A stretch of DNA of 64,000 nucleotides from Acuticoccus sp. I52.16.1 (GTDB lineage: Bacteria > Pseudomonadota > Alphaproteobacteria > Rhizobiales > Amorphaceae), in the NCBI RefSeq assembly GCF_022865125.1, contig NZ_CP094832.1:1-64000 (forward strand), in the 5' to 3' direction. Below the pieces are notes generated by a model that was given only the letters and a program-made list of their open reading frames with translations, searched no databases and was not told the origin of the DNA. Positions 52,304 through 59,918 of this stretch are shown in pieces. Within the stretch, counting starts at the first letter, position 1, and every line of letters starts with the position of its first letter. Made by a program: the position numbers and the translations under genes.

Positions 52304-53536
52304 CTACTCGCTGCGGCTGTTCCATTCCTTCCAGAGGTCGTCGAGCTTGTCCCACAGGAAGTCGCCGAAGCCGGACGCGAGGCGCTTGTCGATGACGATC
52401 TTGTCGGACGCGGCCGTGACATCCCGGCGCAGCACCGGTTCCTTGGCGCCGCGCGGGCGGAACACTTCGCCCTTGGCCGCATGGGGGCGGCCGGCGGCGA
52501 TCAACCGGCGCATCGCCCGCGCGCCCCGGATCTCCTGGCGCTCCACCCGATCGAGCTCGGCGGCGATGCGGGCGCGCGCGGCCTCCTCGCGCCACAGCGT
52601 CTCCAGCGACAGCCATGTCGGCCGGCCGATCGACGGGTCGCCGCCGATGTGCATGACGAGACGGTCCGGCAAGGTCATCACCATGCGGTACCGGCTGACC
52701 TCGCTGCGCTGCACCCCGAGGACGTCGGCGGTGAACTGCACGGTCCACCCGGTGTCGGCGAGGAGCTTGGAGGCCTGGCGCGCCTTCTCGATGAAGGAAG
52801 GCGGGGCGTGCTGGCTGTTCTCGCGCGACAGGACGGTGACGGCGGCCTCGTCGTCCATCGTACGTACGATGGCGCGCAGCGGCCGGCCGAGCTTGACGCA
52901 CGCGCGGTGCCGGCGGTGGCCATAGACCAGCTCGAACCGCCCCGCCTCGCTCGGATGAGGGCGCACGAGCGCCGGCGCGATCTGCCCCTCGCGTAGAATG
53001 CTCTCGACCAGCGCGTCGAACTCGGCGCTGTCGTCGAAGTCGGCGAAGCGGTCGTGCCAGCGGAAGGGTGTGATGCGCTCGGTCGCGATCTCCTGGACGA
53101 CGGCGCCATCGTCCAGTGCGCGGCGCCAATGCTCGGCCTCCCGGCTCTGCTCGCCCCAGTTGTTGAGGAGGTGGCCGAGGCCCGGCGCGCGCGAGCCCGG
53201 CGCCGGCCGTGGCACCGACTTGGTCTCCGGCGCCGCCTCCGCCCGTGACGCGGCTGGCGGCTCCTCGGCTGACGGCGGCGTCGCGGGGGGTGCCGCCTCG
53301 ACCTTCTCCGCCGCGGCGCCGGCGACCGACGGGGGAGACGGCTGGGGCGCCGGGATCGGTCCTGCGGCCGGCTCGGATGCGGCGGGCGGTGTTTCGGCGG
53401 CCGCGGCGGCCGGGGGTTTCGGCGTGGGCTCGGGCCGGGCGGGCGCGGCGCGTGGCGGAGTGCGCGGCGCGTCGTCGTCCTCGTTGGCAATGTCGGCGAG
53501 GACGCTGGCGACGCGCTTGCGGGTCGATTTGGCCAT
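52304..53536 (-). CDS. parB: ParB-like partition protein (RepB-type)
   Basis: 410 residues. A long Pro/Ala/Glu-rich N-terminal linker (about 20-135), then the ParB/Srx nuclease-like CTPase core: FDALVESILREGQIAPALVR PHPSEAGRFELVYGHRRHRA (box with GHRRHRA), AVTVLSRENSQHAPPSFIEK ARQASKLL, and a helix-turn-helix WTVQFTADVLGVQRSEVSRY RMVMTLPD. A dimerisation tail follows. It binds centromere sites and is loaded with CTP. ATG 53536 is chosen since it starts MAKSTRKR and lies 1 bp after parA. Confidence 0.9.
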   Translation of the reverse strand: MAKSTRKRVASVLADIANEDDDAPRTPPRAAPARPEPTPKPPAAAAAETPPAASEPAAGPIPAPQPSPPSVAGAAAEKVEAAPPATPPSAEEPPAASRAEAAPETKSVPRPAPGSRAPGLGHLLNNWGEQSREAEHWRRALDDGAVVQEIATERITPFRWHDRFADFDDSAEFDALVESILREGQIAPALVRPHPSEAGRFELVYGHRRHRACVKLGRPLRAIVRTMDDEAAVTVLSRENSQHAPPSFIEKARQASKLLADTGWTVQFTADVLGVQRSEVSRYRMVMTLPDRLVMHIGGDPSIGRPTWLSLETLWREEAARARIAAELDRVERQEIRGARAMRRLIAAGRPHAAKGEVFRPRGAKEPVLRRDVTAASDKIVIDKRLASGFGDFLWDKLDDLWKEWNSRSE

Positions 53537-53537
53537 C

Positions 53538-54860
53538 TCAGTCCTCCGTGCGGTGGGTCGGCCGCTGCCACACGCGCAGGACCTCGGCCTCCAGCTCGGC
53601 ATTGACGCCGTCCATCGACTGCAACGCCCGGTCGTAGGTGCGCTTGTTGGAGCTGTCGCGCACCGCTTCGTAGAGGGTTTGGCGGGCGAGGCCGCAGTCG
53701 GCGACGGCGGTGCTGTGCACCATGGTCGCCGTCAGCACGTCGGTCCGGAACAGCGAGCGCAGGAAGGTCACCACCGCCATCTGCGGCTGGTCGGACGGGG
53801 TGTGCCGGGTGATCAGGATCTTCTCGAAGTCGAGCGGGGTGCTGCGGCCTCCCTGCCCTTCCAGCACCTCCATCAGCGAGCCGGCCAGCGTCATGAACTG
53901 CGCCATGGACGCGACGTCGATCATCTGCGGATGGACCGTCACGACGAGCCCTGTCGACGCGTAGAGGCCCGCCATGGTGATGAAGCCGAGCTGCGGCGGC
54001 GAGTCGAGGATGACGATGTCGTAGTCGTCGGCCACCTGGTCGATCGCCGAGGAGATGCGGGTAAAGAAGGGCGAGGGGTGACGCAGCATCAGCGCGCGCG
54101 GGCTCTCGGTCTCGAACTCGGCGAGCTCGAGGCTGGCGGGTACGAGGTCGAGGCCGGCGAAATAGGTTGGACGGATGATGTCGCGCAGGGGCCGCGGGCC
54201 GGCCTCCTCGCCGAGATGGGCGGGGTCGCCATCGTCCTGGAAGGTGATCGCGCCGAAGAGGCTCTCGTGCGGGCCGACATGCAGCTCCGGCGTGATGCCG
54301 AGCATGGTGGTGAGGCTCGCCTGCGGGTCGAGGTCGATGGCGAGGACGCGGTAGCCGCGCAGGGCGAAATATTGCGCGGCGTGGATCGCCTGGGTCGACT
54401 TGCCGGAGCCGCCCTTGAAGGTGGCGAAGTTGAGAACCTGGATGTGCTCGCCGGCGCGGCGGTGCGGCAGGTAGCGCCCCGGCGACTTGGCGTCGAGGTG
54501 AACCCGCAGGCGCGCCACTTCTTCCAGCGACCACACCCGCCGCCCGGCGGGCTTGGCCTCGGCCTTGGGGATCCCGAGTTCGCTCGCCATCTGGCGCACG
54601 TAGCGCTCGGTGACGCCGAGCAGGCCGGCCACCTCCTGGGTCTGGAAGGGGCGCAGGTTCTTGCTCTGGTCCGGCGCCCAGACCTCCTCGGCGAGGCGGC
54701 TGAGCTTGCGCGACAGGAGCTCGCCTTTGCGGGTGAAGCTGCGCGCGAGGCCGGCGTCCGATGGGGCGGCGGGGGCCGGGTGTGCGGGGCGCGCGTCCTC
54801 GTCCACACGGTCGGCGGCGGCGTCGGCCGCGGGGCGGTCCTGGACGCTGTTGCGATCCAT
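53538..54860 (-). CDS. parA: ParA-like partition ATPase (RepA-type)
   Basis: 440 residues. An N-terminal winged helix-like region (KNLRPFQTQEVAGLLGVTER YVRQMASELGIPKAEAKPAG RRVWSLEEV) precedes the P-loop FATFKGGSGKSTQAIHAAQY F (deviant Walker A) and DIVILDSPPQLG (Walker B). The large N-terminal DNA-binding domain is the repABC RepA/type Ia ParA feature and is used for autorepression. GAGGAGGAC precedes the ATG. Operon parA-parB, divergent from repC. Confidence 0.92.
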   Translation of the reverse strand: MDRNSVQDRPAADAAADRVDEDARPAHPAPAAPSDAGLARSFTRKGELLSRKLSRLAEEVWAPDQSKNLRPFQTQEVAGLLGVTERYVRQMASELGIPKAEAKPAGRRVWSLEEVARLRVHLDAKSPGRYLPHRRAGEHIQVLNFATFKGGSGKSTQAIHAAQYFALRGYRVLAIDLDPQASLTTMLGITPELHVGPHESLFGAITFQDDGDPAHLGEEAGPRPLRDIIRPTYFAGLDLVPASLELAEFETESPRALMLRHPSPFFTRISSAIDQVADDYDIVILDSPPQLGFITMAGLYASTGLVVTVHPQMIDVASMAQFMTLAGSLMEVLEGQGGRSTPLDFEKILITRHTPSDQPQMAVVTFLRSLFRTDVLTATMVHSTAVADCGLARQTLYEAVRDSSNKRTYDRALQSMDGVNAELEAEVLRVWQRPTHRTED

Positions 54861-54984
54861 CGCGATGTCCTCCTCGCGGACGTGGCACTAGGGGCCGAGC
54901 GGGCGCGGCGGTTCCGGTTTCGAGCGCCGCTCCACCGCCTCGACGGTTCTGCCGCTCCGTTCCGGTTCAGGGTCTCGCCCGGCC

Positions 54985-55003
54985 GGTTAACGAGTGGTTA
55001 ACG
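54985..55003. promoter_or_regulatory. Two GGTTAACG repeats upstream of parA
   Basis: GGTTAACG occurs twice, separated by AGT, 125 bp upstream of the parA start. Each contains the palindrome GTTAAC. Possible ParA or ParB binding site for autorepression; function inferred. Confidence 0.4.
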
Positions 55004-55255
55004 CCATCCCCGGCGCGACGCAAAGCCAATCGACGGCCCGAAACCGGTCTCCGCCCGAGTTCTGCACGTCAGCGGTAAACACTTCGTATGCGAACCCGCG
55101 CATGCTTGCGGTGTGCGCGTCGATCCCCGCGCATGGAGCCGTGCGAGAGACTGTGCCACCGGCCGAGCCGGCGGCGTGCTGCGCGAGAGATCGACGCCAA
55201 GAACCCACATCAACCGCCCGACCGCCGTTGCAAAGGGTGGCGATGGCCGCACCCG

Positions 55256-55273
55256 GCGTGCCAGCTGTCACGG
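55256..55273. repeat. 18-bp palindrome, copy 1
   Basis: GCGTGCCAGCTGTCACGG differs from the perfect palindrome at 55411 in two positions. Part of a three-copy set within 173 bp. Confidence 0.75.
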
Positions 55274-55357
55274 GCGGTCCATGGCGTCTGGCCGTTCTCT
55301 ATTTTATGTCGGCCGTCCGCCGACCGACTGCCGTCCGTGAACTGGGCGACGGCTCGG

Positions 55358-55375
55358 TCGTGACACCTGTCACGC
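55358..55375. repeat. 18-bp palindrome, copy 2
   Basis: TCGTGACACCTGTCACGC differs from the perfect copy in two positions. Centred 102 bp from copy 1 and 53 bp from copy 3. Confidence 0.8.
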
Positions 55376-55410
55376 GAGAGGGTCGCAGCCTGGCGCTTGG
55401 CTGGCGAACT

Positions 55411-55428
55411 GCGTGACAGCTGTCACGC
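55411..55428. repeat. 18-bp perfect palindrome, copy 3
   Basis: GCGTGACAGCTGTCACGC is its own reverse complement. Repetition of such a long palindrome in the par/rep gap suggests a protein-binding site for ParB, ParA or RepC. Confidence 0.85.
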
Positions 55429-55766
55429 ACCGCGAGCCGCTCGCAATTCGCCGGTGTGCGGTGTGCGGAGCGTGTGCGATCTTCTGACAGTGGCTCAGGC
55501 TGTTTGCTGCACTCGAACTTGCGTCCGGTGCCGTCTGAACTGCGTAGAACCGACGGAACGTATCGCGCGCCGCTGATGAGATTTCGCTTTGTCGCACTTC
55601 GCGGACACATTCCCACGAATAAAAACGGATGGGCTCTAGACGCTTACAATCTTAACGTGTCCTTCAATTAACCTCGAGCGGAATGCCTAGGGCCGCACAT
55701 CGAATCGCATCACAATAGCTCGATCCGCCGTCACCATCGGTTCCTCTTGGACGCGGCAGTGCCGTT

Positions 55767-55790
55767 TTTGACACGGAATTCCTCGTCAAA
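55767..55790. promoter_or_regulatory. TTTGAC...GTCAAA dyad centred on GAATTC
   Basis: TTTGAC (55767-55772) and GTCAAA (55785-55790) are symmetric about a central GAATTC (55776-55781). The arms resemble the -35 hexamer on both strands. Possible operator in the rep control region. Confidence 0.4.
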
Positions 55791-55872
55791 GCGGATGTGA
55801 CACGCGAAAAATGATCACCGCGACTCCACAACCGCGTCGGAATCGGTCATTTCTGGAATTGACCCTGAAAAC

Positions 55873-55886
55873 CGCTTCGAAGCGGA
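55873..55886. repeat. 14-bp perfect palindrome
   Basis: CCGCTTCGAAGCGG, a perfect dyad in the AT-richer part of the par/rep gap. It can form a hairpin or be a protein-binding site. Confidence 0.6.
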
Positions 55887-55941
55887 ACTGAGAACGCAAC
55901 GCATGAGCCGGCAGCACAGCCCTCGTCACGACACGACCGCT

Positions 55942-55957
55942 CGTTCCCGCGGGAACG
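55942..55957. repeat. 16-bp perfect palindrome (candidate parS-like site)
   Basis: CGTTCCCGCGGGAACG is a perfect dyad. Its GTT...AAC frame recalls the repABC parS consensus (GTT-N4-GC-N4-AAC), but the spacing is two bases shorter. Only one copy noticed. Confidence 0.5.
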
Positions 55958-56079
55958 GGACCGGGCGGCCGCGCAGGGCGGGTGCCGCGCGACCGGCGAT
56001 CGGTGCGTCCGCAGATCCTGGGGCAGGGGGGTCGCCCGAACCGGATTTCAACGAGGGTGTGAAGTCCATGACGTAACCC

Positions 56080-56157
56080 GGCAAAACGAAAGGCCTCGAA
56101 GCGGGAACTTCGAGGCCTTGGGTCTCACCACGTGAGTGGCGATAAGATCGTCTGGAC
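56080..56157 (-). ncRNA. Predicted antisense counter-transcribed RNA (ctRNA) of repC
   Basis: On the minus strand a promoter (TTGACA and CATAAG, 18-nt spacer) points away from repC, and about 70-75 nt downstream lies a perfect 12-bp hairpin followed by TTTCGTTTT, a canonical intrinsic terminator. The transcript would be antisense to the repC leader. This is the organisation of the inc ctRNA found just upstream of repC in repABC plasmids, where it limits RepC synthesis and copy number. Predicted start near 56157. Confidence 0.75.
56081..56119 (-). terminator. Intrinsic terminator of the predicted ctRNA
   Basis: AAGGCCTCGAAG (56090-56101) and its complement at 56108-56119 form a perfect 12-bp stem with a 6-nt loop. 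Read on the minus strand it is followed by TTTCGTTTT (complement of 56081-56089). It is also able to attenuate repC transcription on the plus strand. Confidence 0.8.
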
Positions 56158-56163
56158 AACGCT

Positions 56164-56193
56164 CTTATGCCATCGCGACGCACGGCGTGTCAA
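56164..56193 (-). promoter_or_regulatory. Promoter of the predicted ctRNA
   Basis: On the minus strand: TTGACA (complement of 56188-56193), an 18-nt spacer, CATAAG (complement of 56164-56169). A perfect -35 and a 4 of 6 -10 match. Strong promoters of this kind drive ctRNAs in repABC plasmids. Confidence 0.7.
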
Positions 56194-56247
56194 CAACACC
56201 GAGCCCGGTGAACGGCTCAGTTTTGCCCAGATTCTGGAGGCAGAGAG

Positions 56248-59563
<3,316 letters not shown>

Positions 59564-59918
59564 GAGGGGAGGAGACTGCGCGCCGCCTCGGGCGGTGTCA
59601 ATCATTGGGGACGCACCGGGGCGGCCCGAGATCGACGGCCGATGCGGCGGATGGGCGGTCCGTGGGCAGGAGGTGCCGCATGCGGCGGCACGGGATCAGC
59701 CCGCGGCGGCAACGACATGGCGGGAGGGCAGGGCGAGACCCGCCCGCACGGCGCGGCCGTGCCCCTGCGGCGAGTTCCTGCGGGGGTCGGCGGCGGATGG
59801 CATGCCGTTTGCTGCAGCACCTATCGCGACCCGTTCGCGCACCGGCCTGGCGGCGGTGTCCGGACACGGATCCAGTTCCCCTGAACACGCGGCGACCCGG
59901 TCCCGCGAAGGAGAGAAT
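59564..59918. other. 355-bp divergent gap, no gene seen
   Basis: The gap holds the presumed thiC promoter on the minus strand and the leader of the ABC operon on the plus strand. Several overlapping short frames lack ribosome-binding sites. No clear operator or second riboswitch was seen. Confidence 0.5.

Follow-up and report, generated by a model that had tools for sequence, protein, structure and literature searches.

A predicted antisense RNA in the leader of a repC gene with divergent repAB genes in Acuticoccus sp. I52.16.1

The repC locus and its divergent repAB genes

The window, that is, the whole stretch of 64,000 nucleotides of Acuticoccus sp. I52.16.1 that was analysed, belongs to a contig of 80,413 bp (C5) and carries the only RepC of the source genome. 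The ends of this contig have no exact-match overlap and thus give no indication of a free circular plasmid. The features of the repC locus, whose nearest relatives come from the same genus, Acuticoccus, are given in Table 1. With regard to its proteins, the locus corresponds to a classic repABC operon: RepA, RepB and RepC are all present, the models TIGR03453 and NF040974 are matched above their cut-offs and RepB scores 199.8 against a cut-off of 201.5. With regard to gene order (repA, repB and repC together, and the ctRNA between repB and repC), it is not such an operon, as repAB are found on the opposite strand. The initial annotation had stated that repB does not lie upstream of repC, and this is correct; both repA and repB are on the minus strand and diverge from repC.

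Three parS-like palindromes sharing the core CGTGACAGCTGTCACG lie in the gap of about 1.4 kb between the divergent repAB genes and repC, and one is a perfect palindrome of 20 bp. The sister locus L059, which likewise has divergent repAB genes (RepA 85% identical), carries the 16-bp parS-like core between repA and repC in two perfect copies; it is one of two RepC loci in genome G005 and is located on a contig of 1.4 Mb. Divergent repAB genes were not seen at the other Acuticoccus loci, L058 and L060, within the stretches compared. On its other side repC overlaps tail to tail with the 3' end of thiC (minus strand, 57549–59570 region; named from its protein sequence), and an Rfam search placed a TPP riboswitch upstream of thiC at 59448–59570.

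Table 1. Features in and around the repC leader, in window coordinates
Feature	Position	Strand	Basis or remark
repB (ParB-type)	52304–53602	minus	TIGR03454, 199.8 bits, slightly below cut-off 201.5; divergent from repC
repA (ParA-type)	53538–54860	minus	TIGR03453, 481 bits; divergent from repC
parS-like copies, one mismatch	55257–55272 and 55359–55374	none	sequence scan
parS-like perfect 20-bp palindrome, TGCGTGACAGCTGTCACGCA	55410–55429	none	sequence scan
57-aa open frame, probably no gene	55903–56076	plus	stops 3 nt short of the leader box, in the place of the ribbon-helix-helix gene of relatives
Leader stem A, 5' strand, GGCAAAAC	56080–56087	plus	pairs with 56220–56227
Predicted ctRNA, about 75–78 nt	56157–56081	minus	both ends inferred; start set 7 nt past the -10 box
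Putative intrinsic terminator hairpin of the ctRNA	56119–56090	minus	its complement forms the target hairpin of the leader
Leader segment GGGTCTCACC	56120–56129	plus	within the ctRNA target; anti-terminator pairing possible with 56207–56218 (GGTGAACGGCTC), MFE fold
Extra 5' stem-loop of the ctRNA	56125–56142	minus	folding; not in canonical ctRNAs
-10 box CATAAG	56164–56169	minus	spacer to the -35 box 18 nt; without GANTC
-35 box TTGACA, ctRNA promoter	56188–56193	minus	read from sequence; GTCA core invariant in 25/25 aligned leaders (columns G112–A115)
S-element-like hairpin CACCG/CGGTG	56197–56210	plus	alignment
S-element-like hairpin GAGCC/GGCTC, then AGTTTT	56201–56218	plus	blocked fold
Leader stem A, 3' strand, GTTTTGCC	56220–56227	plus	doubles as U-tract after the leader terminator hairpin
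repC Shine-Dalgarno GGAGG	56236–56240	plus	partly in a local hairpin
repC, replication initiator, 442 aa	56248–57576	plus	NF040974 RepABC_RepC, 192.8 bits (cut-off 150); PF03428

The predicted ctRNA and conservation of the repC leader

The predicted ctRNA is antisense to the leader directly upstream of repC and, as judged by sequence and conservation, has its own promoter and intrinsic terminator. The TTGACA/CATAAG promoter on the minus strand and the 12-bp stem of the initial annotation were both recovered: the hairpin reads AAGGCCTCGAAG-TTCCCG-CTTCGAGGCCTT with 12 Watson-Crick pairs (13 in the terminator scan, which includes one G-T pair) and is followed by the T-rich stretch TCGTTTTGCC. The 70–75 nt that the same annotation placed between promoter and stem had to be corrected, since this is roughly the length of the whole RNA, the gap to the stem being about 38 nt. 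The combination of CATAAG and an 18-nt spacer is also present at several other Acuticoccus and Microvirga loci. The ctRNA is predicted to fold into two stem-loops with a free energy of -35.1 kcal/mol (z = -6.57), a value that none of 200 shuffled sequences reached. A script looking for promoter, distance and terminator together found this pattern once on the two strands of the 64-kb window, and the joint pattern did not appear in any of 1000 dinucleotide shuffles of 54900–56300. The promoter was not listed by a sigma-70 scan of the window because CATAAG lacks the final T which that scan demands, and terminators counted by a loose criterion were in no excess over chance (2 observed, 2.2 expected).

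To view the leader among its relatives, repC leaders were gathered from whole genomes of the order and from PLSDB plasmids, and 61 non-redundant leaders were extracted, with loci that repeat another locus (L003, L021, L027, L028, L051 and L058–L063) excluded. The RepC branch of the window provided 28 "near" leaders, 25 of which were aligned. All 28 contain a TTGAC-type -35 box and a terminator hairpin opposite the repC strand, and in the leader alignment the pairs of this hairpin are maintained despite changes on both sides. Over the 25 leaders, 99.0% of the cells of stem A (GGCAAAGC with GCTTTGCC) are paired, with two pairs changed on both sides; the window and L002 carry such a two-sided change (GGCAAAAC with GTTTTGCC). 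For the S hairpin CACCG/CGGTG the corresponding figures are 99.2% and ten cells changed on both sides, as against 28–41% pairing in the slid control, and the pairing of stem A is likewise far higher than in its slid controls; the shuffle controls preserve column composition and ignore kinship, so that their values are not probabilities. The anti-terminator-like helix is weaker, being paired in 77.6% of cells, and it too has two pairs changed on both sides. The Shine-Dalgarno sequence is mostly paired in 21 of the 25 short leaders, with only two of four bases paired in the window.

The promoter and terminator script misassigned some rows of the other group, outside the near branch (e.g. L016, L044 and L046), and the canonical ctRNA lengths used below exclude L041, L045 and L006, for which wrong starts were called. 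A second alignment, A2, was made of the ctRNAs alone (26 of 27 sequences, L072 being omitted as a near copy of L055) and was set aside on account of its poorly aligned 5' hairpin.

Relationship to known ctRNAs, methylation sites and upstream genes

A covariance model (R1) was built on the 25 leaders and run on the window, on two other stretches and on 36 repC loci outside the training set. It gave the window leader a score of 132.8 bits. Judged from coordinates relative to repC, the match fell on the leader in 21 of these 36 with an E-value limit of 0.01 and in 26 with a limit of 1, leaving ten without a clear leader match; one match away from the leader, at L042, was not counted. The matches coincide with those of RF00489/RF00490 at L007, L026, L041, L045, L047 and L049, and in pRmeGR4a the model finds both the repABC leader (E = 9.3e-08) and the leader of the solo repC (E = 0.0035), indicating that the window leader is homologous to those of known repABC/repC replicons. 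Among 397 genomes of the order, 17 were matched, six of the matches being strong. The gathering score of the Rfam model RF00489 (ctRNA_p42d) was reached neither by the window nor by any of the 11 near-branch loci searched, while six of nine other repC loci in the same search were matched; a lax Rfam search of the window, extended to E = 10, returned chance-level matches only, and neither RF00489 nor RF00490 was among them.

Since the leader model also detects repABC leaders and the solo repC of pRmeGR4a, we assign the predicted window element to the ctRNAs of the repABC/repC family, homologous to known ctRNAs. In the repC family, according to PMC10194956, where the pRmeGR4a work is cited, repC is negatively regulated by an antisense RNA that also determines incompatibility, and repC with an antisense RNA and without an operon with repAB occurs in pRmeGR4a and pSmeLPU88b. 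A repC with a ctRNA and no adjacent repB is therefore already described, and what is new here lies at the level of the variant only. Like the repABC ctRNAs (RF00489 together with the RF00490 S-element; RepE of pTi), the window element is antisense to the repC leader, has a TTGACA promoter and a strong terminator hairpin complementary to the leader, and is accompanied by an S-element-like hairpin before repC. It differs from them in its predicted length of 75–78 nt (55–59 nt for repABC ctRNAs; PMC10194956), its extra 5' stem-loop, its sub-threshold Rfam scores, the absence of GANTC at the -10 box and a location that is not between repB and repC. In near-branch ctRNAs the 5' part comprises 34–51 nt and contains the stem-loop, while canonical ctRNAs with readable ends have 7–13 nt before the terminator stem. 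The solo repC ctRNAs of pRmeGR4a and pSmeLPU88b resemble the window in being outside an operon with repAB and, for pRmeGR4a, in the leader homology given above. However, the solo RepC of pRmeGR4a is only about 25% identical to that of the window, its ctRNA as placed in this analysis has 25 nt before the terminator stem compared to 38 in the window, and the window does possess repAB, although in divergent orientation.

GANTC motifs are reported to occur in the promoters of repABC and of repE as well as in origins located within repC, and GcrA represses the repE promoter in Agrobacterium (PMC11514494). Among our leaders, GANTC, the CcrM site, overlaps the -10 window in 22 of the 32 others with a readable -35 box (L057 is without one), compared to only 1 of the 28 in the near branch. 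There is no GANTC in 56080–56193, and thus none at the -10 box of the window ctRNA. This difference may be partly phylogenetic and possibly goes back to a single event, because the near branch is one clade. GANTC is rare over the window as a whole (56 against about 321 in shuffles), whereas the space between repA and repC together with repC itself contains 9, where the rest of the window would predict 2.08 (Poisson P = 0.00032); the GANTC-densest stretch of its size in the window is 54861–57576. The genome encodes GcrA and a RAMA-domain protein, which we take to be of the CcrM kind.

Of the 30 near-branch loci compared (the 28 together with L075 and L076), 25 have a gene for a ribbon-helix-helix protein of about 65–80 aa directly upstream, ten of the sequences having served to build a profile and fifteen having been found by it. 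It ends 1–7 nt before the ctRNA terminator box, in the place that repB takes in repABC plasmids, and is found upstream of repC at L031, L035–L040, L052, L053, L055, L056 and L066–L078 (most of them); at L054 this place is taken by repB. When six of the proteins were run against Pfam, one passed RHH_1 and one fell slightly below, and NCBI labels two as ribbon-helix-helix. All of the four Acuticoccus loci are without the gene. The 57-aa open frame of the window was considered as a relative and rejected, as it has no Pfam match and was missed by the profile. In the RepC tree the four Acuticoccus loci form a clade (100/99) beside Microvirga, within the gene-bearing branch; the long branches of this tree are L101, L034, L057 and L014, and the placement of Acuticoccus rests on other branches. 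The simplest reading is that Acuticoccus lost the ribbon-helix-helix gene, as its clade appears nested inside a branch that has it. This gene, the extra 5' stem-loop of the ctRNA and the lost CcrM site at the -10 box are three features on which the initial annotation was silent.

Some relatives have a palindrome upstream of the ribbon-helix-helix gene, e.g. GCTCGTAACGTTACGAGC, and many have none. It is possible that repC in the relatives with this gene is controlled by a ribbon-helix-helix repressor as well as by the antisense RNA. A comparable arrangement, with a small ribbon-helix-helix repressor and a terminator-hairpin antisense RNA before the initiator gene, is described for pMV158 (CopG and RNAII; PMC4485353). 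As pMV158 is a rolling-circle plasmid with an unrelated initiator, and the window has no ribbon-helix-helix gene, this is an analogy only. In the part of the literature covered, mostly papers outside subscription, we met no description of the order ribbon-helix-helix gene–ctRNA–repC or of the divergent order.

Proposed mode of action and alternative readings

The sequence features, their conservation, the covariation in stem A and the S hairpin, and the homology to known repC leaders together make it very probable that the element encodes a copy-control antisense RNA of a RepC plasmid, with transcription, termination, target binding, an effect on RepC and copy control as the predicted steps. 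A ctRNA controlling repC was also the reading of the initial annotation, which gains support from the conserved promoter, terminator and leader (28 of 28) and from the covariance-model homology. In this proposal, the ctRNA would be transcribed opposite to repC from a start near 56157 to a stop at its terminator hairpin, and would be the full complement of its segment of the repC leader. As long as the leader is free, stem A and the pairing of GGGTCTCACC with GGTGAACGGCTC would restrain the S-element-like hairpins. Binding of the ctRNA to its target would abolish both pairings, upon which the terminator-like hairpin at 56201–56218 followed by AGTTTT could form and the Shine-Dalgarno sequence would become less accessible, giving less RepC. 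More plasmid copies would then produce more ctRNA, resulting in negative feedback and incompatibility. In p42d, the free leader forms a large stem-loop that leaves the Shine-Dalgarno sequence and the start open, and binding of the ctRNA permits an intrinsic terminator to form (PMC3155836); in our folding models the window leader appears to match this scheme in outline.

The initial annotation had suggested folding the repC leader with and without the RNA, and the outcome was divided. Both stem A and the GGGTCTCACC/GGTGAACGGCTC pairing are present in the fold of the free window leader, and blocking of the target gives a fold that has the GAGCC/GGCTC hairpin followed by AGTTTT. Accessibility of the Shine-Dalgarno sequence decreased upon blocking in all four Acuticoccus leaders (0.43 to 0.25, 0.42 to 0.00, 0.56 to 0.00 and 0.78 to 0.00), in agreement with the expected effect. 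The S hairpin, on the other hand, increased in only 15 of the 25 leaders; it exceeded 0.5 in 12 when blocked and did so already in the free state in 8. In the window it merely rose from 0.05 to 0.12, and another hairpin forms instead. With such a mixed response, a simple folding switch that is uniform over the whole branch is not supported.

A genuine ctRNA might also act only through translation or RNA stability, without attenuation of transcription, an alternative to which we give a substantial but minor chance, somewhat over one in three. It would fit the poor U-tract past the S hairpin in most relatives (CGCTTTGCC), the local hairpin at the Shine-Dalgarno sequence that 21 of the 25 short leaders have and the drop in mean Shine-Dalgarno accessibility from 0.39 to 0.25 with the target blocked. 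Against it, a GTTTT tract does exist in the window and L002, and there are descriptions of attenuation in p42d (PMC3155836) and pTi (PMC11514494). A further alternative is that promoter and hairpin are a chance sequence, or the remnant of a decayed module that no longer replicates. The loose terminator count at chance level and the contig ends without exact overlap are in line with this, but the joint pattern appeared in none of 1000 shuffles, the leader is intact (132.8 bits) with compensating changes, and the repC, repA and repB reading frames are all open, for which reasons we hold it to be improbable. More improbable still is that the hairpin terminates a protein gene on the minus strand, namely the 455-aa frame antisense to repC (56125–57492). 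This frame does exist and its stop lies 6 nt before the hairpin; in the 24 other near-branch leaders, though, the longest antisense frame ending there has at most 35 aa, and in nine of them there is none. Shadow frames are common at high G+C, and the 455-aa frame was rejected as owner of the terminator, being a shadow frame without counterpart in 24 relatives.

Taking the copy-control reading further, we tentatively suggest, as a possibility short of an even chance, that repC copy control has a separate branch at these loci, with repC and its two-hairpin ctRNA moving together as a single module. The ctRNA promoter of this branch would have lost the CcrM/GcrA methylation site by which the classic ctRNA is timed, and the gene upstream could be swapped. 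In Methylobacterium, Microvirga, Bosea and phage-plasmid-like replicons this partner would be a ribbon-helix-helix repressor, in one Microvirga plasmid it would be RepB, and Acuticoccus would have none, repAB having been re-attached divergently in two of its four loci. If so, the cell-cycle signal would no longer act on the antisense arm, whereas GANTC would be retained at the repC promoter and origin. Independently of this suggestion, the predicted antisense control of RepC travels with repC whatever the fate of repAB, and the classic Rhizobium ctRNA is one end of a wider family extending beyond present Rfam coverage. With GANTC missing from the ctRNA promoter and kept upstream of and within repC, the locus also allows one to ask directly if the CcrM/GcrA timing of secondary replicons acts via the antisense RNA. 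Moreover, if the ribbon-helix-helix gene of the relatives encodes a repressor, alphaproteobacteria would have reached a solution with repressor and antisense RNA like that of pMV158.

Microvirga sp. VF16 carries five plasmids with closely related RepC (L035, L052, L066, L071 and L078), and their predicted ctRNAs differ most in the 5' tail, which exists in five versions (mean identity 0.66), alongside three versions of the 5' hairpin and two of the terminator (0.98). These data are consistent with the 5' tail being a determinant of compatibility; work by Rivera-Urbalejo from 2015 reportedly found incompatibility to be relieved when the p42d ctRNA is mutated at its 5' end. By itself the diversity does not show selection for compatibility, because the identity of the co-resident tails matches that of all ten Microvirga ctRNAs (0.67); the co-resident diversity is no greater than that of Microvirga overall and was rejected as proof of selection. 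As a separate observation, replicons of 115–118 kb from Sinorhizobium, Methylobacterium, Pararhizobium and Shinella (L056 and L073–L076) share this repC module, and one of them, pLM21S1, is described as a phage-plasmid.
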